A stretch of DNA of 64,000 nucleotides from Verrucomicrobiota bacterium (GTDB lineage: Bacteria; Verrucomicrobiota; Verrucomicrobiia; Opitutales; UBA953), in the NCBI GenBank assembly GCA_030830965.1, contig JAURLX010000010.1, forward strand, positions 1 to 64,000, read 5' to 3'. Positions 14,473 through 64,000 of this stretch are shown here, in pieces; the first letter of the stretch is position 1, and every line of letters starts with the position of its first letter. Position numbers and translations under genes: made by a program. The notes under the pieces were generated by a model that was given only the letters and a program-made list of their open reading frames with translations, was not told the origin of the DNA and searched no databases.

Positions 14473-14937
14473 ATGTCGTCCATCGAAGCCCGCATCGCAG
14501 AGCTCGGCCTGGCCCTGCCGACGCCCCCTCCGGCCGCGGGCGCCTACGTGCCGGCCGTCCGGTCGGGCGCGCTGCTCTTCCTGGCCGGCACGCTGCCGGT
14601 GCGGGAGGGCCGGGTCGTCTCCCTCGGCAAGGTGGGGCGCGAGGTCGACCTCGCGCAGGCGGCCGAGGCCGCCCGCCTGTGCGCGCTCAACGCCCTCGCC
14701 AACGCCAAGGCGTCCCTGGGCTCGCTCGAGCGCGTCGAGCGCGTCGTGATGGTGAACGGCTTCGTCAACGGCGTGGACGGATTCAGCGACAGCCCGAAGG
14801 TGCTCAATGGCGCATCGGAATTCCTCCTCCACGTCTTCGGCGAGGCCGGCCGGCACGCCCGCGCGGCGGTCTCGGTGAACGGCCTGCCGCTCGGGGCCTC
14901 GGTCGAGGTCCAGCTGACCCTGCAGGTGCGCGACTGA
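14473..14937 (+). CDS. RidA/YjgF-family enamine/imine deaminase-like protein
   Basis: 154-residue member of the YjgF/YER057c/UK114 family, trimers that hydrolyse reactive enamines and imines formed by PLP enzymes. The family motif appears as GALLFLAGTLPVREG, with AARLCALNALANAKASLG in the middle and AGRHARAAVSVNGLPLGASVEVQ at the end. The Arg that binds the substrate carboxylate in RidA (here within AGRHARAAVS) seems to be kept. The length is longer than RidA itself (about 128), matching the TIGR-type variant with an N-terminal helix. It is convergent with the TolA-like gene 3 bp away. Confidence 0.85.
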   Translation: MSSIEARIAELGLALPTPPPAAGAYVPAVRSGALLFLAGTLPVREGRVVSLGKVGREVDLAQAAEAARLCALNALANAKASLGSLERVERVVMVNGFVNGVDGFSDSPKVLNGASEFLLHVFGEAGRHARAAVSVNGLPLGASVEVQLTLQVRD

Positions 14938-14940
14938 TCC

Positions 14941-15726
14941 TCAGCCTCCGCTGACGGAGATGTTGGGGAAGTCGATCCCGAAGCCCTTCCCGCCAGGAGG
15001 CGGCCCGCAGTTGCCGATCCGGGCGCAGGCGCGGCGGACGAGCTCGGCCATGCGCGTGTCGGAAGGCTGCCGGATCCAGGAGCCGAAGCGTATGTTGCCG
15101 GAGGCGTCGACGGTGACCGTGACACCGCAGCCACCTGCGTCACGGATGTCCATGCCGTCCTCGTTCACGATGTCGACCCAAGCGCTGCGGAACCGCGCAA
15201 GCACCTCGCCGGCGTAGAGCTGCATGGCGGTCGCGCCGCCACCATCCCCGCCGTTGTCGCCCGCCCCCTGGGGCCGGCCGCGGACGGAGACGCCCCCGAT
15301 TAGGCCGGACTTGCCCGAGGCTCCGGTCCGGCCGCCCTTCTCTTTGAGAAATTGGCCCAGCGAGGTCTTGCCGGTCTTGGACTGGGTCTTGGGACCCTTG
15401 GAGGTCGTCGGGACGGTCTTGGTGGAGACCGAGGGAGAAGGTCTTGCCTCGGCCTCCTGGGCGCGGGCCACCGCCGCCATGTCGAGCCGCGGGATGTTGA
15501 TGCGCTTGATGCCCTTCGACGCCTCCGGCGTGCCGCGCGCGACCCCGGGCGCCTTGCCCACCTCCCCGGGACGCCGGCGAGGATCGCCGGCAAGATCGAC
15601 CACCAACGCAGGCTCCGTCGGGGCGCCGCCCCTGCCGGCCGCGAACCAGGAGAACGCCACGAAGGCCCCCGCGATGAGGAGATGGACCAGCACCGAACCG
15701 ACCATTCCTCTCGCGCCGCCGGACAT
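14941..15726 (-). CDS. TolA-like energy-transducing envelope protein
   Basis: 261 residues: one N-terminal membrane helix (VGSVLVHLLIAGAFVAFSWF), then a long Lys/Gly/Ser-rich disordered spacer (about residues 40-165), then a compact C-terminal domain. The C-terminal part, beginning LYAGEVLARFRSAWVDIV and containing GCGVTVTVDASGNIRF with later Cys residues, resembles domain III of TolA rather than TonB. It is the last gene of a three-gene set with a TolQ and a TolR homologue (3 and 6 bp gaps). It should therefore transmit proton-motive force to the outer membrane. A TonB role for the nearby receptor is an alternative. TolB and Pal are not in the window. Confidence 0.65.
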   Translation of the reverse strand: MSGGARGMVGSVLVHLLIAGAFVAFSWFAAGRGGAPTEPALVVDLAGDPRRRPGEVGKAPGVARGTPEASKGIKRINIPRLDMAAVARAQEAEARPSPSVSTKTVPTTSKGPKTQSKTGKTSLGQFLKEKGGRTGASGKSGLIGGVSVRGRPQGAGDNGGDGGGATAMQLYAGEVLARFRSAWVDIVNEDGMDIRDAGGCGVTVTVDASGNIRFGSWIRQPSDTRMAELVRRACARIGNCGPPPGGKGFGIDFPNISVSGG

Positions 15727-15729
15727 GAT

Positions 15730-16155
15730 TCAGCGTATCTCCGTGTCGAGCCCGACCTTGGACAGGCCCTTGGACTTGGCCAGCGACATGACGTCGACGA
15801 CCCTCTGGTAGGGGATCGAGCCGTCGCCGCGCACGCGCACGACGGGCTGGTCGGCCTCGGAACGCGCGGCGATCGACGCGAACTCCTCGCCCAGCTCCTC
15901 CTTGGTGACCTTGCGGTTGCCGAGGCTGTAGCTGCCGTCCGCCTCGATCACGACGAAGCGGTACTGCGTCTTCGGGTCCGGGTCACGCCCCGCGCCCTTG
16001 GGGGCCTGTGGTAGGTTGACGGCGGTGGTCTGCTCGAGCACCGGGGTGGCAATCATGAAGATGATCAGCAGGCAGAAGCACAGGTCCAGCATCGGCGTGA
16101 CGTTCAGCTCGTTCATCACGTGCAGACGATGGGGCTTGGAGAAGGAGCGTGCCAT
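15730..16155 (-). CDS. TolR/ExbD biopolymer transport protein
   Basis: 141-residue inner-membrane protein with one N-terminal helix. The conserved Asp lies at the start of the membrane helix (LNVTPMLDLCFCLLIIFMIATPVL), the proton-carrying residue of the ExbD/TolR family. The periplasmic domain has FVVIEADGSYSLGNRKVTK and ends at SKVGLDTEIR. It lies between the TolQ-like and TolA-like genes, so it most likely forms the motor stator with them. Confidence 0.92.
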   Translation of the reverse strand: MARSFSKPHRLHVMNELNVTPMLDLCFCLLIIFMIATPVLEQTTAVNLPQAPKGAGRDPDPKTQYRFVVIEADGSYSLGNRKVTKEELGEEFASIAARSEADQPVVRVRGDGSIPYQRVVDVMSLAKSKGLSKVGLDTEIR

Positions 16156-54356: not shown

Positions 54357-54686
54357 ATGGCCTCCCCGCTCATCGCGAACCTGGACTCGTCCAACTTCGA
54401 GTCCGCCATCACCGCTTCCCCCAAGCCCGTCCTCGTCGACTTCTGGGCCACTTGGTGCGGGCCCTGCAAGCAGCTCGGCCCCGTGCTCGACCAGCTGGCC
54501 GAGGAGATGAAGGATACGGCGAGCATCGCCAAGGTCGACGTCGACAGCAACCAGGGACTGGCCCAGCAGTTCGGGATCGCCTCCATCCCCGCCCTGATCC
54601 TCTTCAAGAACGGCCAGCCGGTGGACAAAATCATCGGGCTGCGGCCGAAGGCCGACATCGCCAACTTCATCCGAAAGCACGCCTGA
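54357..54686 (+). CDS. trxA: Thioredoxin
   Basis: 109-residue thioredoxin with the redox motif WCGPCK (Cys34, Cys37). VLVDFWATWCGPCKQLGPVL and the cis-Pro turn SIPALILFKNGQPV are canonical. It reduces cytoplasmic disulfides and supplies electrons to reductases. A bidirectional terminator follows, separating it from the convergent cytochrome c gene. Confidence 0.96.
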   Translation: MASPLIANLDSSNFESAITASPKPVLVDFWATWCGPCKQLGPVLDQLAEEMKDTASIAKVDVDSNQGLAQQFGIASIPALILFKNGQPVDKIIGLRPKADIANFIRKHA

Positions 54687-54757: not shown

Positions 54758-55438
54758 TTACTTGCCCAGCGGATGCGCGTCGAGGATCTCCTTGGGAGAG
54801 AGCTGGCCGCGCGCCCCGAGCGCCTTGCGCACTTCGGCGACGGAGGTGTCCATCACGGGGTCGGCCGCGTTGCCCCACGCGGAACGCACGTAGGTCGCGA
54901 TGTTCGCGATCTGGGCGTCCTTGAGGGCGGACCCGACGTTGGGCATGTTGCCGTTGTACTTGGCGCCCGCGACCTCGACCTCTCCGGCCATGCCGAGAAG
55001 GATGATCTTGATCATGCGCTTCTCATCGCCCGCCACCCAGGGGGATTTGGCAAGAGGGGGGAACGCGCCGGGCAGGCCCATTCCGGTGGGCTGGTGACAG
55101 GCGGCGCAGTTGGCCAGGTAGAGCTTCTCACCCTTGGCGGCATCGGGCTCGAAGGCCACGGGACCGGCCGAGGCGGACACCACGGGGGCGTCGAGGTCGA
55201 AGGCGGAGGCCGAGAAACCGCGGGAATTGCGAGTGAGGTAGAGTCCGGCCCAGAAACCGAAGGCGCAGAAAAGGAAGACCACGAAGATCGGGGTCATCGA
55301 GAAGCCCAGCGCCGGCTCCTGCTTGTTACGGGCGATCTGGGAGTGCACCTCGACGAGACGTCCGTCGGAGAAGCCTTCAGGGCCGGGACCGCCCTGGCGG
55401 GGCCGGCTGCGGTCGGAATGGCGATTGCGGTCGTTCAT
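54758..55438 (-). CDS. Membrane-anchored mono-heme cytochrome c (operon end)
   Basis: 226 residues. A cytoplasmic, Arg-rich N-terminus leads to one helix (MTPIFVVFLFCAFGFWAGLYL) and a periplasmic cytochrome c domain with heme site CAACHQ. The heme is followed by PTGMGLPGAFPPLA and the Met ligand region YNGNMPNVGS. Domain and wording match the other cytochrome of the operon at 57377 (CIACHQPTGMGLPPVFPPL), so the two are paralogues. Position after ccoO-like suggests a CcoP-like part, but only one heme site is present rather than two. It is the last gene of the operon. Confidence 0.88.
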   Translation of the reverse strand: MNDRNRHSDRSRPRQGGPGPEGFSDGRLVEVHSQIARNKQEPALGFSMTPIFVVFLFCAFGFWAGLYLTRNSRGFSASAFDLDAPVVSASAGPVAFEPDAAKGEKLYLANCAACHQPTGMGLPGAFPPLAKSPWVAGDEKRMIKIILLGMAGEVEVAGAKYNGNMPNVGSALKDAQIANIATYVRSAWGNAADPVMDTSVAEVRKALGARGQLSPKEILDAHPLGK

Positions 55439-55442
55439 GGCG

Positions 55443-55979
55443 TCACTTCAGAGGGGCTTCGGGAGAGGGGTAGTCCTGCCGTAGCGAGCGCAGGTAGGCG
55501 GCGAGGGCGATGGCACGATCGGAGGGAACCTCGTGCTTGGCTCCGGAGTAGAGGAAGGCGAACTGGTCGCGACCTTCGACCCTGTGCAGGATCGCGCGGT
55601 GCACGCCGTCATCGTCCTTGATGCGCGCACCGTAGTTGGCGAGGTCCGGTCCGCGACGGCGGTCGCCGAGCAGGACGACCGGCTGCAAGACGTAGTCGCG
55701 CGCGACGGAAGGACGGGCGCCGAGTCCGCCGGCGATGTCACGCCCTTGACCCGCAGGGCGCACCTGCTGGGTATGGCAGCTCACGCAGCCGAGCGAGAGG
55801 TAGACCTCGCGGCCCTGGACGGCCTGACCGGGTTCCAACGGCGGCATCAGCGGGCCGCCTTCCTCGGCGGGGGCGCGCCCGAGCGGGCCGAGCTGGGCCT
55901 GCGCGCCGACTACCAGCCCGAGGAAAGGCAGGGCCGTGGCGGCAAGGGCGCCGAGGACGAGATAACGGAAGTTCTTCAT
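55443..55979 (-). CDS. CcoO-like mono-heme cytochrome c subunit
   Basis: 178 residues anchored by an N-terminal helix (FRYLVLGALAATALPFLGLVVG). The heme c motif GCVSCHTQQVRP, followed by RRRGPDLANYGARIKDDDGVHRAIL, is that of CcoO (FixO), the membrane cytochrome of cbb3 oxidases (GC.NCH.Q.IRP; GPDL...GG). It is shorter than typical CcoO (about 200). Its neighbour upstream is the CcoN-like protein, as in real cbb3 operons. Because that partner lacks metal ligands, this cytochrome more likely passes electrons on than delivers them to a heme-copper site beside it. Confidence 0.85.
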   Translation of the reverse strand: MKNFRYLVLGALAATALPFLGLVVGAQAQLGPLGRAPAEEGGPLMPPLEPGQAVQGREVYLSLGCVSCHTQQVRPAGQGRDIAGGLGARPSVARDYVLQPVVLLGDRRRGPDLANYGARIKDDDGVHRAILHRVEGRDQFAFLYSGAKHEVPSDRAIALAAYLRSLRQDYPSPEAPLK

Positions 55980-55988
55980 GACGGCGGG

Positions 55989-57380
55989 TCAGTCTTGAGC
56001 GGGATGGGACTCCGGGGCTGGCGAGCCCTTCAGGAGCGTGGCGAAGGTGTTGGCGGCGAAGGCGAGGTGTCCTGCCAGCAACAGACCAGTGGAAACCAGG
56101 CCGACGAAGGCCATGGTCTGGGACGCGCCGCCAATCTGGGCGAAAGCGGAGACGGCGGAACCGACCGCACCAAGGAACGAGGCCCAGAAGTGCGTGTGGA
56201 TGGCGGCGGCGGAAGGCCAGCGGCTTCCGGAGACGCGGGGCAGCGCGGCATAGGCGGCGCCGAAGATCGTCATGGAGACGCCGGCGTAGAGAAGCAGCAC
56301 CCCCTGCCCTTCGGCGAAGGAGGTGAACCTCAGCGCGGCGTTCACGGAGCGGTCGGCGGCCCAGGCCGCGAGCACCAGAGAGAAGAGAATCGCGACGACC
56401 CCGACGGAGATGAAGCGAAGGGCGGTACTGTTCCAGGCGCGGGACCAGCCGCCCTCCTGGGAGAGGGCGCCGAGCAGATTGAGACCCACGAGCAGCACGG
56501 GCACCAGCATCATCATCGAGCCGACCACGCCCGCGGATTGCACCCAGAGAGGCACGGGCGAACCGATGAGGGAGGCTGGGGCCGTCCAGCCGGCGAACAG
56601 GAAGTATGTCCAGAACGCCACGGAGGCGAGGTAGTAGGCGTGCAGGGGGCGGGCCAGCACCTTGGAGACAAAGTAGTAACCAAGTCCAAGGGCCGAGCCG
56701 CCGAGCCAGAGCAGAGTCGCGGTGCGGACGTACCAGGAATGCGCGACGGCCTGCGCCACGCCGGCGGCGGGCGCCCAGACCACGGTCACCTGCGCCAGGA
56801 CAAAGGCCAGGAGGAAGGAGACGGCGGCGGCGACCACGAACCACTGTCCGGCGAAACTATGTCCGGTGGGGCGCTTCGCGTAGGCGACGACCGGCCAGAG
56901 TCCGGCCAGCGCGAAGGCGACCGCCAGCACCGGACCGGCACCCGCGGGGAAGTCCAGCAGCGCGTAGGCTCCGGGCCCGCTGATAATCACGGAGACAGTG
57001 CTCCAGATCAGGGCAAGGTTCCAGAAAAGCCCGCCGATGGCGGCCATCCAGCCGTTGCGGATCTCGAAACGGCCAAGCTGCGAGAGCAGCCAGAGGTTGA
57101 GGGCGAAGAGCGCGTTGCCCGCCCAGCCGTAGAAGAACGCGTTGCGGGCCGCGGCCTCGAGACGCCCGAACGAGGTCCATTCGCAGGAGCCGAACCCCGC
57201 GGGCAGCAGCTTGAAGGCGGCCACCAGTGAAAGCGCCGAGCCGAGGGTCAGCCAGAGCACGGCGGAGCCGAAGAGGAGGAGGAAGGGGCCGCGCAGCGGG
57301 GCGTCCACGCGGGAGACGCGGGCACGGTCCTCGTCGGGTCGGCCGGATCGTTGTTCCTGAGTCATGGGAGAGTCGGTCAC
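55989..57380 (-). CDS. CcoN-like protein lacking all heme/CuB ligands
   Basis: 463 residues, about twelve membrane helices, clearly homologous to CcoN, the catalytic subunit of cbb3 oxidases. WTSFGRL (68-74) is identical, NALFALNLW, SWYVRTATLLWLGG, YYFVSKVLARP, and HTHFWASFLG align in order. However the low-spin heme His (in PLHTNA of CcoN) is Ala78. The CuB His of WYGHNAV is Arg219. The His pair of GPHHLHY is replaced by GWTAPAS (264-270). The HYTDWTIGHVH segment reads RFTSFAEGQGV (351-361). Only seven His remain, none at ligand places. The sequence is intact without stops, so it is under selection for a non-oxidase role. It starts with GTG overlapping the previous gene by 4 bp. Confidence 0.85.
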   Translation of the reverse strand: MTDSPMTQEQRSGRPDEDRARVSRVDAPLRGPFLLLFGSAVLWLTLGSALSLVAAFKLLPAGFGSCEWTSFGRLEAAARNAFFYGWAGNALFALNLWLLSQLGRFEIRNGWMAAIGGLFWNLALIWSTVSVIISGPGAYALLDFPAGAGPVLAVAFALAGLWPVVAYAKRPTGHSFAGQWFVVAAAVSFLLAFVLAQVTVVWAPAAGVAQAVAHSWYVRTATLLWLGGSALGLGYYFVSKVLARPLHAYYLASVAFWTYFLFAGWTAPASLIGSPVPLWVQSAGVVGSMMMLVPVLLVGLNLLGALSQEGGWSRAWNSTALRFISVGVVAILFSLVLAAWAADRSVNAALRFTSFAEGQGVLLLYAGVSMTIFGAAYAALPRVSGSRWPSAAAIHTHFWASFLGAVGSAVSAFAQIGGASQTMAFVGLVSTGLLLAGHLAFAANTFATLLKGSPAPESHPAQD

Positions 57381-58120
57381 TTGATGCCGAGTTCGGCGGT
57401 GTTCCAGGGGGCGGCGCGACCGGCGGTGGCGTCACGGACGGCCTTCACCTGCGCGGGCGTCACGGACGAACCCTTGTTGCCGAAGCTCTGCCGGACGAAG
57501 GTGAGCACGTCCGCGATGTCCTGGTCGTTCACTCCGGGGACGGGGGGCATGATGGAGTTGTAGGTCATTCCCTTGATGGTCACGGGACCCATGAGCCCGT
57601 GCAGGACAAACTTGATCGGCAGCGCCGGGTCGCCGTTGACCAGCGGTGATTCGACAAGGGGCGGGAACACGGGCGGCAGCCCCATGCCGGTGGGCTGGTG
57701 GCAGGCGATGCAGGTGCGGGCGTAGACGGCCTGACCGCGCTTCATGGTGGCGTCATCGGCGGCGACGAAGGCCCCGGCGGACGCGGGCGCGGGTGCGACG
57801 GGGCTGGCGGGCGGCGCAAGGCGTCCCAGAATCTCAGGGCGTTCGGCGGCGACACGCAGCGCGTCCTCGAGCGGGATGCGGTAGGTGCCGTCGTCGTTCC
57901 TGCCCGAGGAGGACAGCAGCGCGGAGGCCTTGGCCTCGGTCTCGGCGCGCAAGGCGACCTGCTGGCCGCGGCGGACGGCGGCGGGCGATTCGCCGCCGCG
58001 GAAGGACAGGTAGGCCGCGACGGAGGCGGCCGCTGCCGCGCCGACCAGCGCGACGACCGCCAGCCAAGAGGCGATCTGGCCGGGGATCAGGGGGCGGGAG
58101 CGGGGAGGAAGCTCACTCAT
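57377..58120 (-). CDS. Membrane-anchored mono-heme cytochrome c (first of two)
   Basis: 247 residues: one N-terminal helix (IASWLAVVALVGAAAAASVAAYL), an Ala-rich linker, then a cytochrome c domain with heme site CIACHQ and PTGMGLPPVFPPLVES. The Met ligand lies near YNSIMPPVPGV. It overlaps actF by 8 bp and the CcoN-like gene by 4 bp, so the three are tightly coupled. It is probably the electron acceptor from ACIII, as membrane cytochromes next to actF often are. Confidence 0.9.
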   Translation of the reverse strand: MSELPPRSRPLIPGQIASWLAVVALVGAAAAASVAAYLSFRGGESPAAVRRGQQVALRAETEAKASALLSSSGRNDDGTYRIPLEDALRVAAERPEILGRLAPPASPVAPAPASAGAFVAADDATMKRGQAVYARTCIACHQPTGMGLPPVFPPLVESPLVNGDPALPIKFVLHGLMGPVTIKGMTYNSIMPPVPGVNDQDIADVLTFVRQSFGNKGSSVTPAQVKAVRDATAGRAAPWNTAELGIK

Positions 58121-59387
58121 GATAGTTGATGGACTCGAGGATGCGGGGGTCGTGGACCGGCACAGTCTCATGACGGGAGGCGCCGCGGAGGAAGATCGCG
58201 GCCACGAGACAGCCGAAGCCGACGACCGCAAGGAGATCGAGGGCGAGGCCGGAGGAGAGGAATGGGGTCACGGTGAAGCCTTCCGGCGCGGCCTTGTCCG
58301 TGATCTGGCGGGGCACCGCGTTGAACCAGAGGTCCGCGAGGCCTCCGGCGAGGATGAGCCCGGCGACGGCGGCGAGACGCCCGGCCACGATCTTGGTGCG
58401 GTAGAAGAGCAGCGTCAGGAACGGCAGGACGAAGAACCCGAAGATCAGGTACATCGAGACGCCCCACCACTGGCTCTTCGCCCCGGTCAAGGGGTCGAAC
58501 TCTCGCAGGTTGTACCAGAAAGTCTCCTCGGGGATGTTCGCGGTGTAGATGAGGAAGTACTGGGAGAAGCTGATGTAGGCCCAGAAGACGGTGAAGGCGA
58601 GGCAGAGGCAACCGAGCACATGACGATGAGCCTGGTTCATGATGCCTTCGAGCCAGCCGCCCCGGGTGAGCAGGTGGGTCACCAGCACCGTCACCGCAAG
58701 GGAGATGCGGATGGAAAGGGCGAAGAACCAGACACCGTACATGGTGGAGAACCAGTGGTACGACAGGGCCATCAGGCAGTCGAACGCCAGCATGGTGAGC
58801 ATGATGGCGGACATCGGTATGCCGGCGGCGGAGATGGCGTGCAGACGGTGCGTGTGGCCGGCGGAGCGGTCGGAATCCTGCGCGATCGACCCGCGGCGGA
58901 GAAGCCACGCCAGGCCGCCGAAGAAGACGACGTAGAGGACGATGCGCGCGAGGAAGAAGGGCTGGTTGAGGAACCAGGACTTCGACTGGAGGATCGGGTC
59001 ATGACCGACTTCGTGGCCGCCGGGCAGGACGTGGTGTGCGTCCGTCCACTCCCAGAGCAGGTGCCGGAAATCAGGAAGCAGGGCCAGCGGCAGGACGCTC
59101 AGGGCGAGCACGACCGGCAGGCCGGGCAGCGCGAGCTCCCAGGACCGGCGGATGATGGGCGCCCAGCCAGCGTCGAAGACGCGGGTGATCATCGTCAGCA
59201 TGAGCATGCCGATGAGCGCGGAGACCCAGAAGAGGCCGCCCACGAGGACCGAGAGCGCAGGACGGTGCTCATGGCCGGAGAGCCCCTGGAAGGCGAAGCC
59301 CCAGGAGACCGCTAGGGCGGCCACGGCCACGACCAGGAACTTCTTCCACTGGGCCGTGACGGGATGTGCGGACGGGAGAGAGGTCAT
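58113..59387 (-). CDS. actF: Alternative complex III subunit ActF
   Basis: 424 residues and about ten membrane helices. ActF is one of the quinol-handling integral membrane subunits of the alternative complex III. It shares weak likeness with ActC but is distinct: LPDFRHLLWEWTDAHHV, FLNQPFFLARIVLYVVFFGGLAW, ALSYHWFSTMYGVWFFA and NIPEETFWYNLRE are typical ActF blocks. Placed after actE and before a cytochrome c gene, as in other ACIII clusters. Confidence 0.9.
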   Translation of the reverse strand: MTSLPSAHPVTAQWKKFLVVAVAALAVSWGFAFQGLSGHEHRPALSVLVGGLFWVSALIGMLMLTMITRVFDAGWAPIIRRSWELALPGLPVVLALSVLPLALLPDFRHLLWEWTDAHHVLPGGHEVGHDPILQSKSWFLNQPFFLARIVLYVVFFGGLAWLLRRGSIAQDSDRSAGHTHRLHAISAAGIPMSAIMLTMLAFDCLMALSYHWFSTMYGVWFFALSIRISLAVTVLVTHLLTRGGWLEGIMNQAHRHVLGCLCLAFTVFWAYISFSQYFLIYTANIPEETFWYNLREFDPLTGAKSQWWGVSMYLIFGFFVLPFLTLLFYRTKIVAGRLAAVAGLILAGGLADLWFNAVPRQITDKAAPEGFTVTPFLSSGLALDLLAVVGFGCLVAAIFLRGASRHETVPVHDPRILESINYHE

Positions 59388-59394
59388 TGTAAGG

Positions 59395-60111
59395 TCACTT
59401 GGTCTGGGACTTCACGGAGGCGGGCGCCGCCTCGGCCGGGCAGGCTTGGGACAGCTGGAGGGCGCGGACGTAGGCGACCACGGCCCAGCGCTCATGGGGG
59501 GACAGCTTATCCCCGTACCCCTGCATCGTGTTCTTGCCGTTGGTGATGACGTCGAAGATCTGGCCGTGCGGGTAGCCGCGGAAAAGCGGTGTGTGCAGGT
59601 TGGCGATGGTCGCGATGGCCACATCCCCTTCGACGGCCGAGCGCACCTTCATGATGCCGTTGCCGTCGCCGGCGGCGCCGTGACAGACGGAACAGTAGAC
59701 ACCGAACATCTGCCGGCCGGTCTCGAGGAGCGCGGCGTCGACCTTGAAGTCGGCGAGGGCGCCGCCAGGCAGCACGGTGAGCGACTTCGCCGGGAAGACG
59801 GCGAGAGGGGCGCCCTGGGCGTCCTTGCCGCTGACGAAGGAGGGGTTGAGCGACTCGGCTCGGCGGTAATCGGCGGAGAAGACCTTCTCGGGGGCGAGGT
59901 CGTCGCCGCGGGCGACGGTCCCGGCGACGGGCGGACGGGCGTCCCGTCGGTCGGCGAAGAAACGGTTCTCACCCTGCGGGCGGTAGCGGGCCTGAAGGTC
60001 CATGTCGTCGAACACCTGGACCGGAGGGTCCTTGGAGACGCGCCCCTGGAGGCCGAAGAAGCCCAGGAGGCCGACGACCACGACGGCGAGGGAGAGGAGG
60101 TAGCGGTTCAT
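59395..60111 (-). CDS. actE: Alternative complex III cytochrome c ActE
   Basis: 238 residues. An N-terminal helix or lipidated signal (NRYLLSLAVVVVGLLGFFGLQ) is followed by a mono-heme cytochrome c with CSVCHGAAGDGNG. The Met ligand lies in KNTMQGYGDKLSPHERWAVVAYVRAL. It sits in the periplasmic face of ACIII and transfers electrons from ActA/ActB to outside carriers. Start lies 7 bp before actF. Confidence 0.92.
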   Translation of the reverse strand: MNRYLLSLAVVVVGLLGFFGLQGRVSKDPPVQVFDDMDLQARYRPQGENRFFADRRDARPPVAGTVARGDDLAPEKVFSADYRRAESLNPSFVSGKDAQGAPLAVFPAKSLTVLPGGALADFKVDAALLETGRQMFGVYCSVCHGAAGDGNGIMKVRSAVEGDVAIATIANLHTPLFRGYPHGQIFDVITNGKNTMQGYGDKLSPHERWAVVAYVRALQLSQACPAEAAPASVKSQTK

Positions 60112-60121
60112 GGGCGTGGGC

Positions 60122-60664
60122 TCAGTCGCGGATCACGGTGATCTCCTGCCCGCCGAGCGACTGGAGGAAGCCACGGGCGTCATCCAGGCGGAACTGCGGG
60201 TCACGGGCCTCGAGGACCACCATGAAGGTGTCATCGGAAACGCGCGCGAACTGCGGGAGGTCGAAGAGGGGGTGGTGGTGGCGAGGCAGGCGGTTGAAGA
60301 TGAACTGCCCGAAGAATGTGCCGAAGGCCGCGAACAGGATGGTGCACTCGTAGAGCACGGGGAAAGGGTAGATCACGCTCCAGAAGGGCTTGCCGCCGAC
60401 GATCAGCGGATAGTCGTAGGAGTTCATGAACCAGGTCAGCAGGCACCCGGTGATGAAGCCGGTGACGCCGCCGAGCAAGGTGAGGCGCGGCACCGGCGAG
60501 CGAGGCAGGCCCATGGCGTGGTCGAGCCCGTGGATCGGGAAGGGGGTGTGCACGTCCCAGCGCTTCCAGCCCGCGTCGCGCACCTTCTCGGCCGCGCGGT
60601 AGACGTCGGAGGGCCTGCGGAAGGTGCAGGCCACGCCGAAGATGCGATCGTTGCGTTCGTTCAT
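60122..60664 (-). CDS. actD: Alternative complex III subunit ActD (DUF3341)
   Basis: 180-residue DUF3341 protein with two membrane helices (LLGGVTGFITGCLLTWFMN and VLYECTILFAAFGTFFGQFIF). DAGWKRWDVHTPFPIHGLDHAMGL at the N-terminus is the conserved block. ActD is a small subunit of ACIII with no cofactor. It lies between actC and actE. Confidence 0.93.
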   Translation of the reverse strand: MNERNDRIFGVACTFRRPSDVYRAAEKVRDAGWKRWDVHTPFPIHGLDHAMGLPRSPVPRLTLLGGVTGFITGCLLTWFMNSYDYPLIVGGKPFWSVIYPFPVLYECTILFAAFGTFFGQFIFNRLPRHHHPLFDLPQFARVSDDTFMVVLEARDPQFRLDDARGFLQSLGGQEITVIRD

Positions 60665-60683: not shown

Positions 60684-62093
60684 TCAGTGGGCGTGCGGGT
60701 CGGCGTGCGGCGTCACCATCTTCACCTCCGCCATGGGCAGGAGGGGCAGGAATCGCACGAACAGCAGGAAGAGGACGGAGAAGAAGCCGAAGGTCCCGAA
60801 GAAGGTGAAGATGTCCACGATAGTCGGGCTGTAGTAGCCCCAGCTCGAAGGCAGGTAGTCGTTGGCGAGGGACGTGATCGTGATCACGAAGCGCTCGAAC
60901 CACATGCCGACGTTGACGAAGAGGCAGATGATCCAGACGAGCGAGTGGTTCTCGCGGACGCGGCGGAACCAGAAGAGCTGCGGGGTGATCACGTTGCACG
61001 ACACCATGATCCAGTAGGCCCAGGCGTACTGGCCGAAGGCCCGGTTGATGAAGGCGAACTTCTCGAACGGATTGCCCGAATAGGCCGCGATGAAGAACTC
61101 CGTGGCGTAGGCGTAGCCGACCATGCTGCCCGTCGCCAGGATGATCTTACACATGTTGTCGATGTGGTACTGGTTGATGACGTCGTGCAGGCGGTAGACC
61201 GCGCGCAGGGGGAGCATCAGGGTGAGCACCATCGCGAAGCCGGAGAAGATGGCTCCGGCGACGAAGTAGGGCGGGAAGATCGTGGTGTGCCAGCCGGGGA
61301 CGTTCGAGACGGCGAAGTCGAACGAGACGATGGTGTGCACCGAGAGCACGAGCGGGGTCGAGAGGCCGGCGAGCAGCAGGTACGCCATCTCGAAGTTGCT
61401 CCACTGGCGGTTGCCGCCGCGCCAGCCCATCGCGAGGACGGAGTAGAAGGCCTTGCGCCACCAGGTGCGGGCGCGGTCACGGATGGCCCCGAGGTCGGGG
61501 ATCATGCCCATGTACCAGAAGAGGGCCGAAACGGTGAAGTAGGTCGAGACGGCGAAGACGTCCCACTCGAGGGGAGAACGGAACTGAGGCCAGATGGCGT
61601 TCTGGTTGGGGAGCGGGAAAAGCCACCAGGCGAACCACACGCGGCCCACGTGGAAAAGCGGGAAGATGCCCGCGCACATGACCGCGAAGATCGTCATCGC
61701 CTCGGCGGCGCGATTGATCGAGGTGCGCCACTTCTGCCGCAGGAGGCAGAGGATGGCCGAGATCAGCGTGCCGGCGTGGCCGATGCCGACCCAGAAGACG
61801 AAGTTCACGATCGCCCAGCCCCAGCCGACGGGCGAGCGGAGGCCCCAGGTGCCGGTGCCGGTCGAGACGAGGTAGGCGAGGCCGGCGCCCGTGAAGGAGG
61901 CGACGAAGAGGGCCACGAGGAAGGTGATCTTCCACCAGCGGGGCGTGGGCTCTTCGACGATGCCGCAGACCTTGTCGGTGATCCAGTGGAAGCCCCGGTC
62001 GTTGAGGACGAGCGGGGAGCGGGGAAGCTCGGCCGGGCGGACACGGTCGAGGACCGCGGGGCGGTCGGATGAACTGTCGTGGGCGTGGGCCAT
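60684..62093 (-). CDS. actC: Alternative complex III quinol-oxidising subunit ActC (NrfD family)
   Basis: 469 residues, ten membrane helices of the NrfD/PsrC family, the main quinol-oxidising part of [61 protein letters not shown] and [18 protein letters not shown] are typical; [11 protein letters not shown] and [12 protein letters not shown] are conserved around the quinol site. The gene follows actB with a 21 bp gap. Confidence 0.95.
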
Positions 62094-62114: not shown

Positions 62115-64000
62115 TTACTTGTGGGCGCCTTCGGCGTGGGAAGGACCGTGGGCGCGTCCGTCCAGCTCGAGGCGGGTGTTGGGCGCCTTGCGGGCCCCGG
62201 GCATGCGGAGGTTGAGGTTGCGCAGGCGAGCCTGGTAGGTGGTGCGCGGGCGGGTGTTGAGGTAGGTCAACGCGCCGTAGCTGCGGGAGGAGGCCTTGGC
62301 CTTCGCCACGCGGGAGTTCGGATCGGTGATGTCGCCGAACTCGATCGCGCCGGCGGGGCAAGCCTGCTGGCAGGCGACCTGGACGGCGCCGTCGGCGACG
62401 CGGACGTCGCCGGAGTCCTTGGCGCGCACCTTGGCGCGGATCTTGGCCTCCTGGATGCGCTGCACGCAGTAGGTGCATTTCTCCATGACGCCGCGCATGC
62501 GCACGGAGACGTCAGGATTCTTCTGCATCTGAGGCAGGTCGGCGGGGTCCTTGACGGCCTTCTCAGGCCCGAGAGGACCCTCGTAGTAATGGCCAGCCTC
62601 ACGCTTGTTGTAGTCGAGGAAATTGAACCGGCGCACCTTGTACGGGCAGTTGTTCGCGCAGTAGCGGGTGCCGATGCAGCGATTGTAGGCCATGGTGTTG
62701 AGGCCCTGCTCGTCGTGGACGGTGGCGTTGGCCGGGCAGACGGTCTCGCAGGGGGCGGTCTCGCAGTGCTGGCAGGCGACGCCCATGAACGTGATCTGCG
62801 GATCCTCGGGGATCTCGAGACCGGCATGCTCGCGGCCGTCGGAGAAGTACCGGTCGAGGCGCAGCCAATGCATGCTGCGACCCTTGAACACCTGGTCACG
62901 TCCGACGACGGGGATGTTGTTCTCGGCCTGGCAGGCGGTCACGCAGGCGTTGCAGCCGGTGCAAGTGCTGAGGTCGATGGACATGCCCCACTGCTGGGGG
63001 GCGGGGAACTTGTCCTCATGCCCGCGCCAGACCGCGACGTTGGGAAGTACGGTATGATCGGGATGCTCGTAGGCGGAGTTGCCGCGGGGCGTCGTGACCG
63101 CCTTGAGGGCGGGCGTCATGGCGCCATCCTTGCCGTAAACGGCGGGAGCATGCCCATCGACGCCGAGCTTGGCGAAGTCGGTGCCGGCGCGGAGGTCCTC
63201 GACGGTGCCCTCGCGGAGGACGTCGCGGCCCTCCATGGACCAGTGGTCCTGGAGGTTGCAGACCTGGATACGCTCCGCGGTCAGCTCGAGACGGACACCG
63301 GTGCGGACGTCGGGCTCGGCCGCGGAGACAAGGGGATAGGCGCTGAAGCCGTTGCCGAGGACCTCTCCGCGCAGACGCGCGTCGACACGGGTGGCCACGC
63401 GGCCGCCGAGCCGGCGGCCGAAGCCGAGCTGCAGGCCGACGGTACCGTCGGCCAGGCCGGGCATGATGAAGAGCGGGCCGGTCACAGTCGCTCCGCCCAC
63501 GGTGAGCCGAGCGACGCGGCACATGAGCTTGCCGTCCTCGACGGCGTTGATGTTGCGGTTGAGGGCTCCGAGCTCGCTGATCTTGCTGGCGACAGGGTCG
63601 ATGGAGAGTTTCGCAGCCAGCCGGGGGCTGACGAGGATGACGTTCTCCCAGGCGGTGCGCGTCAAGGGGTCGGGCGCTTCGGAGAGCCAACCATTGTTGG
63701 CCAGAAGACCGTCGCCGGCGTGGGCGCTGGGGACGATGCGGGCCTCGAGCGAGTCAAGGGAGACGGCGGGCGCGGCGTAGTCGCCGGCGGCGGAGGCCGG
63801 CTCGACGCGAGCCGCGGGGAAGGCGGTGCCCCGGAGCACGCCTTCGGCGAGCCAGGCGGAGTAGGCCGCGTCGGATGCGTCCTTCGAGAGCTGCCCGAAG
63901 GTCTCGCGGACGAGACCGGCGGCGTCCTTGTCGGATCCGGCGAAGGGCGCGAGGACGTCGAGTTCGCCGAAGGACGGAAACAGCGGCTCGATCATGGGCT
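62115..64000 (-). CDS. actB: Alternative complex III subunit ActB, C-terminal part (partial)
   Basis: The C-terminal 630 or so residues of the large periplasmic iron-sulfur subunit. The N-terminal molybdopterin-oxidoreductase-like half and start lie beyond the window edge. The four-cluster domain is complete here: CTGCNACVTACQAENN, CQHCETAPCETVCP, CIGTRYCANNCPYKVRRF and CTYCVQRIQ with ACPAGAI. MGVACQHC, and NFLDYNKREAGHYY are ActB wording. It transfers electrons from quinol oxidation to ActA and ActE. actA, usually upstream, would be outside. Confidence 0.94.
   Translation of the reverse strand, partial: PMIEPLFPSFGELDVLAPFAGSDKDAAGLVRETFGQLSKDASDAAYSAWLAEGVLRGTAFPAARVEPASAAGDYAAPAVSLDSLEARIVPSAHAGDGLLANNGWLSEAPDPLTRTAWENVILVSPRLAAKLSIDPVASKISELGALNRNINAVEDGKLMCRVARLTVGGATVTGPLFIMPGLADGTVGLQLGFGRRLGGRVATRVDARLRGEVLGNGFSAYPLVSAAEPDVRTGVRLELTAERIQVCNLQDHWSMEGRDVLREGTVEDLRAGTDFAKLGVDGHAPAVYGKDGAMTPALKAVTTPRGNSAYEHPDHTVLPNVAVWRGHEDKFPAPQQWGMSIDLSTCTGCNACVTACQAENNIPVVGRDQVFKGRSMHWLRLDRYFSDGREHAGLEIPEDPQITFMGVACQHCETAPCETVCPANATVHDEQGLNTMAYNRCIGTRYCANNCPYKVRRFNFLDYNKREAGHYYEGPLGPEKAVKDPADLPQMQKNPDVSVRMRGVMEKCTYCVQRIQEAKIRAKVRAKDSGDVRVADGAVQVACQQACPAGAIEFGDITDPNSRVAKAKASSRSYGALTYLNTRPRTTYQARLRNLNLRMPGARKAPNTRLELDGRAHGPSHAEGAHK

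Follow-up and report, generated by a model that had tools for sequence, protein, structure and literature searches.

A CcoN-like subunit stripped of its metal ligands recurs beside alternative complex III in Verrucomicrobiota

Selected passages of work on Flavobacterium johnsoniae and Rhodothermus marinus describe an alternative complex III (ACIII) with an aa3-type oxidase at its side, to which it hands electrons directly (PMC5928083, PMC8552683), and passages of other papers report an ACIII-linked ‘C-type oxidase’ in verrucomicrobial methanotrophs and Opitutaceae (PMC8498564, citing Refojo 2010; PMC6688271). The window analysed here, a 64,000-nucleotide stretch of a verrucomicrobial metagenome-assembled genome (MAG), contains the same kind of gene cluster, published elsewhere as a cbb3 oxidase, in which the gene for a protein resembling CcoN, the catalytic subunit of cbb3 oxidases, appeared to an earlier note to have lost every metal ligand. 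What might such a protein be doing amongst the genes of ACIII, and is it more than an accident of a single genome? The genes concerned are arranged as follows:

54758..55438, minus strand: CcoP-like monoheme cytochrome c, with CXXCH and Met kept
55443..55979, minus strand: CcoO-like monoheme cytochrome c, with CXXCH kept and the axial Met lost
55989..57380, minus strand: CcoN-like (N-like) subunit lacking the ligands for heme and copper, 463 aa, probably starting at ATG 57365
57377..58231, minus strand: extra cytochrome c (cytX), with a conserved Met start near 58120
58113..59387, minus strand: ActF, membrane subunit of ACIII, without a Pfam match and named from position and synteny
59395..60111, minus strand: ActE, monoheme cytochrome c
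60122..60664, minus strand: ActD (PF11821, 203 bits)
60684..62093, minus strand: ActC (NrfD family)
62115..63995, minus strand: ActB, Fe-S part, 626 aa here

Genes for ActB, ActC, ActD, ActE and ActF are thus found together, as expected of an ACIII operon in a comparison that covers ActB to ActF, ActA being expected to fall outside the window. Since complete ActB frames in congeners run to about 1120-1200 aa, as against 626 here, the ActB gene probably continues past the window end. A thioredoxin gene (54357-54686, plus strand) is convergent to the cluster, as in the genus loci compared, and was not found beside the cluster in the order-level loci compared.

By both sequence and predicted fold, the N-like protein is a relative of subunit I of the C-type (cbb3) oxidases. 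It matches the Pfam COX1 family with 92.4 bits (cut-off 34.8), and TIGR00780 (ccoN) with 84 bits, far short of the equivalog cut-off of 583. Among PDB sequences it matches CcoN proteins best, and phmmer aligns residues 40-425 with the CcoN of 3mk7 (E 6e-27), including an identical WTSFGRL, which bears out the whole-length kinship first read from the letters alone. An AlphaFold model built with 28 sequences (mean pLDDT 91.3, pTM 0.92) has CcoN 8smr_E and 3mk7 as its closest PDB folds (TM 0.85-0.87), so that the protein is predicted to have a CcoN fold. The earlier note also took the gene to be translationally coupled to its upstream neighbour, and here the close spacing stands while the overlap is doubtful: a start at GTG 57380 would overlap the stop of the preceding gene by 4 nt, whereas ATG 57365, 11 nt past that stop, encodes a Met6 shared by 33 of 34 genus rows, which makes it the likelier start.

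When the ligand columns were read against a canonical CcoNO (L051), the six positions that hold the His ligands of heme b, heme b3 and CuB were found to be occupied in the window protein by A78, R219, A269, S270, Q359 and V361, so that none of the six His is present, and the active-site Tyr of helix VII, which is found in all 34 intact sequences described below, is replaced by Ala. These are the losses (Ala78, Arg219, the HH pair and the HxH) that had been proposed from the sequence, and of the checks suggested at that time, alignment shows the ligand His absent and structure prediction gives a CcoN fold. Misalignment was considered as a source of the apparent loss and rejected, as intact orthologues show every ligand in the same alignment; in addition, because the His motifs of an intact orthologue (L035) fall in register with those of the PDB CcoN 9g6b in a phmmer comparison, the reading is independent of any single alignment. 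The window protein therefore presumably lacks heme. Compared with the cbb3 CcoN of 3mk7 and 8smr, the protein is alike in its fold, in its full-length alignment and in the adjoining genes for CcoO- and CcoP-like cytochromes, but it lacks the six metal ligands and the active-site Tyr and is encoded with ACIII. Furthermore, the P-like protein has one heme motif, whereas canonical CcoP has two.

Could the heme pocket have been refitted rather than emptied? A new cofactor site, binding heme or metal through other residues, or an activity on another substrate, would be one way to account for a retained protein of this kind. The recurrence of particular ligand-column patterns in some families (QQRHQQ, HSQKFI and HNQRYH) and the retention of the active-site Tyr in two ligand-poor sequences both lean in this direction, as does His214. 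This is one of five His residues (174, 214, 395, 397 and 438) retained in at least 80% of the 34 genus rows, none of them at a ligand column, and it is the sole one of these in the periplasmic half of a transmembrane helix, by our own assignment of topology from the AlphaFold model; it is found in 32 of the 34 rows and replaced by Y or A in the other two. However, across these 34 rows we found no genus-invariant His, Met or Cys in the periplasmic helix halves, where the old pocket lay, the ligand-column patterns vary and are unlike between families, and the Tyr is gone in 92 of 94 ligand-poor sequences. We regard a new site or activity as quite improbable.

To what extent is the loss shared? 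A search for the subfamily among 57 relatives gave matches in 51, some of them to proteins other than this subfamily. We extracted 129 subfamily sequences from across the class, one of which (G045, cut by a contig end) was left uncounted, and the remaining 128 fall into two groups: 34 keep five or six of the His together with the Tyr, 94 keep between none and three, and none keeps four. In the intact group 33 sequences have all six His and one (G160) has five, while 0, 1, 2 and 3 His are kept in 53, 32, 7 and 2 ligand-poor sequences, respectively. All 34 rows from the genus, window included, keep no His or one; these rows were chosen for having the gene, other genus genomes having given fragments or no match, and G035b, an additional one-His copy from the genus genome G035, was grouped with the other 60 ligand-poor sequences. 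Frames of at least 430 aa are open in 128 of the 129 sequences, the remaining one being that cut at a contig end. The gene is therefore intact, as the earlier note had it, and no one-off decayed copy, its losses being shared by the 34 genus rows and in all by 94 sequences. Two individual cases may be mentioned here. The only five-His sequence (L168, from G160) has exchanged a CuB ligand for Arg, as at the window’s position, and possibly represents an early stage of ligand loss. In Chthoniobacter flavus (L245, about 14589-16086) the N-like gene is split over two overlapping frames, through either a frameshift or a sequencing error.

The genomic setting is as constant as the frame. Of 105 loci with 5.5 kb of sequence available upstream, 102 have ActC, ActD, ActE and ActF ahead of the N-like gene and on its strand, with 23 stretches, and the cut G045 among the 105, only as long as their contigs allow. 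The three exceptions are G059, in which ActD was not found, G165, in which ActE and ActF alone were found, and G057, in which a search of the 6.7 kb before the intact N-like gene gave no Act gene. In the 1.7 kb available downstream, a CcoO-like gene follows in 115 of 115 loci and a CcoP-like gene in 114 of 115. We also scanned named ACIII loci by way of ActC, judging the best 80 of at least 588, several of which end too near ActC for an N-like gene to be seen. Within these 80, the window’s nearest relatives by ActC are the Opitutales MAGs L203 (UppL5) and L204 (Baikal-deep), and 33 have a linked N-like gene (32 from Verrucomicrobiota and one from Planctomycetota), five of them intact and 28 ligand-poor (two of the 28 incomplete); some are probably the same genomes as those already counted (for example L215 and G155). 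Of the two phyla in which a search for a ligand-free form beside ACIII had been suggested, Verrucomicrobiota yields it, whereas the sole linked copy from Planctomycetota among these best 80 loci (MAG L279) has all of its ligands. Taken together, these counts confirm the loss and show that it reaches far more widely than the earlier note had envisaged.

The ligand-poor group includes cultured organisms. In Methylacidiphilum V4, Kam1 and SolV the Act genes are followed by a gene for a CcoN-like protein in which the Tyr is missing and a single one of the six ligand columns still holds His, and the ACIII-linked subunit I of two Cephaloticoccus strains likewise keeps one of six. In the three methanotrophs this is the only strong match to the N-like family profile, other matches scoring below 40 bits, while long CcoNO-type frames of other bacteria reach 192-232 bits on the same profile; the COX1 score of the protein in SolV and V4 is 50-51 bits. 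Published passages list the Methylacidiphilum cbb3 as one of three oxidase types (PMC8498564, PMC10205796) and tie the cbb3 oxidase beside ACIII to high oxygen affinity (PMC6688271). It appears from our comparison that this ACIII-adjacent ‘cbb3 oxidase’ of V4, Kam1 and SolV is the ligand-poor form. We found no published mention of the ligand loss at the level of titles and the openings of abstracts, or in selected passages, in a search lying largely outside the subscription literature.

We then asked how often the ligands were lost. On a tree of concatenated ActB, ActC, ActD and ActF proteins with 97 rows (30 intact, 66 ligand-poor and one uncounted; left out were most genus rows, G035b and eight loci for which too little sequence was available), the distribution of states requires a minimum of 18 changes, 14 of them forced by well supported branches. 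On a tree of 36 N-like proteins from which the ligand columns had been removed, seven changes are required, five of them forced; this smaller number may stem from long branches or gene exchange. A single ancient loss, with all ligand-poor forms in one clade, was rejected by AU tests on 36 rows picked after the ligand table had been seen, both for the Act proteins (p 1.4e-4) and for the N-like protein without its ligand columns (same rows, p 4.5e-10). We infer that the intact state is ancestral, because six His and a Tyr would otherwise have had to be regained repeatedly, which is implausible. The two states can be found in close relatives: within one family, the proteins of G087 and G224 are 60% identical, and the first has all six His, the second none.

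A slowly decaying relic, kept by an essential operon or for cytochrome assembly and having no role in electron transfer, would also leave such a record, and we think this unlikely, though less so than the other alternatives considered here. Ligand-poor rows do sit on long branches, there is one internal stop in at least five rows among the matches listed, the gene of C. flavus occupies two frames, and the CcoO-like Met is gone in 41 of 94 ligand-poor rows. Selection on the N-like protein is relaxed too: its dN/dS against four congeners is 0.17, 0.18, 0.24 and 0.31, as compared with 0.04-0.06 for ActC, and its dN exceeds that of ActC, ActD and ActF in each of the four comparisons. These ratios nevertheless lie well below 1, and the protein is under purifying selection, constrained but relaxed. 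A relic also sits poorly with the frames of at least 430 aa that stay open in nearly all sequences, with the presence of the gene in 34 of 34 genus rows (chosen for having it), and with the near-invariant residues found throughout the protein, W43, P60, G72, G85, P145, W216 and P277 being examples retained in all 60 ligand-poor rows outside the genus. Ligand-poor forms carry less mean information than intact ones in all regions, the fall being smallest in the periplasmic loops (2.98 to 2.30 bits) and, amongst helices and loops, largest in the cytoplasmic loops (2.93 to 1.71 bits). As proton uptake would begin in the cytoplasmic loops, this last fall counts against a heme-free bundle of 12 helices that adds to proton translocation as a conformational or proton-conducting element of ACIII, a reading which has the lasting genetic linkage with ACIII in its favour and which we consider very improbable.

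The partner cytochromes show a graded pattern. CXXCH is present in the CcoO-like protein in all 128 rows aligned; all 34 intact rows have its axial Met, as do 53 of 94 ligand-poor ones, with Cys, His, Lys, Asp, Arg or other residues in its place where it has been lost. The CcoP-like Met is found in 33 of 33 intact and 89 of 91 ligand-poor rows, both misses being gaps, and the ActE Met in 30 of 30 and 81 of 81, where for these two proteins the axial place was chosen by us and a Met counted if it lay within 2-3 columns. In cbb3 oxidases electrons pass from CcoP to CcoO, then to heme b and on to heme b3/CuB. Decay tracks this path, being near complete at its far end and partial in the middle, with none seen at the entry. 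Replacement of the CcoO-like Met by Cys recurs in several families (in loci such as L167, L176, L184, L186, L193, L194, L195, L197 and L200) and would be expected to alter the redox potential of the heme.

Calling A-type oxidases by a bit score of about 415 or more and the matched span (G181 and G232 by eye), we found that, outside the genus, 27 of the 34 genomes with an intact form have one, as do 58 of the 59 with a ligand-poor form, the single ligand-poor exception (G070) having a CcoNO-like frame. The association between ligand loss and a second oxidase has a Fisher p of 0.003 with ancestry uncounted. As proof it was rejected: over 14 independent pairs, 3.4 speak for it and 1.0 against, 9.6 show no difference, and the median p is 0.625. 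In a survey of 80 genomes, an A-type COX1 lies 1.6-2.8 kb past the N-like gene on the same strand, a gap wide enough for O and P, in 14 of 53 ligand-poor and six of 27 intact genomes; one further ligand-poor genome (G146), with its COX1 6 kb past N, brings the ligand-poor genomes with a close downstream aa3-type gene to 15 of 53. The aa3 genes thus adjoin intact forms as well, and in most surveyed genomes they lie elsewhere. Pfam confirms the downstream COX1 in G304, G191, G109 and G281, with COX2 or COX3 adjoining, and in SolV a Pfam COX1 lies about 0.1 kb after the CcoP-like frame. No A-type COX1 was found close after N in the 57 relative genomes, many of which are in short contigs.

Within the genus, 34 of 37 genomes have a COX1 match besides the N-like gene, some of them only fragments, and G000, G006 and G017 have none. 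Neither another COX1 nor COX2, COX3 or bd subunit I was found in the window’s own MAG (87% complete); that COX1, COX2 and COX3 are all unfound would fit one missing operon or, alternatively, a true absence. G046 (99% complete) yielded no COX1 besides its intact form and no bd subunit I, so that the intact form is probably a working oxidase.

These observations can be accommodated if the N-O-P genes encode a decommissioned cbb3 module within the ACIII operon, an explanation that we favour with some reserve. The ancestral N-O-P would have been a C-type oxygen reductase fed directly by ACIII. Many lineages would then have given up the oxygen-reducing centre in N but retained the subunit itself, now free of heme, to anchor the O- and P-like cytochromes c in the membrane next to ACIII. 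On this model, quinol would pass electrons through ActB, ActA and ActE to the CcoP-like heme, a c-heme outlet from which they would leave for either a mobile cytochrome c or an oxidase of the A-type (aa3). Gene order suggests that N-O-P may be bound to ACIII as a physical complex, and both this complex and the electron path are inferred. The earlier note had raised a scaffold or a relay to another oxidase, to which the direction of electron flow is added here as a proposal; since fold, operon and c-hemes are conserved and aa3 genes lie near in some relatives, this is the best explanation we have, albeit one that the genes suggest rather than establish. It would differ from the ACIII-aa3/caa3 supercomplexes of F. 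johnsoniae and R. marinus, for which the passages cited above mention no CcoN-like subunit, in that a ligand-free CcoN gene is placed between the genes of ACIII and, in some relatives, those of aa3.

A broader proposition, on which we are evenly divided, is that subunit I of heme-copper oxidases was turned more than once into a structural, metal-free part of a respiratory complex, giving a large family of ‘pseudo-oxidases’ that wire ACIII to a second oxidase, the supposed cbb3 of volcanic methanotrophs included. If true, annotations of a high-affinity cbb3 beside ACIII would be wrong in many Verrucomicrobiota, Methylacidiphilum included, and inferences of a low-oxygen lifestyle drawn from that cbb3 would need revision. 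Subunit I is commonly defined by its metal ligands, and one classifier, in the part of its description available to us, dropped sequences without six His (PMC3084760), a practice that could hide the N-like family. The natural series from intact to stripped forms may indicate what a supercomplex needs from an oxidase besides catalysis, and cultured strains of Methylacidiphilum and Cephaloticoccus make the pseudo-oxidase reading testable.

Two loci depart from the common arrangement. The near congener G035 carries a second, diverged N-O-P set (L040, G035:C165:1-4000; 36% identical, one His) and has two ActD genes, this set representing either a second ACIII cluster or contamination. At L313 (G086:C1, between 4847 and 12144) about 7 kb separates ActF from the N-like gene, and this insert may be a nitrous oxide reductase cluster like that reported, in the passage available, inside the ACIII genes of Methylacidiphilum caldifontis IT6 (PMC11102522).
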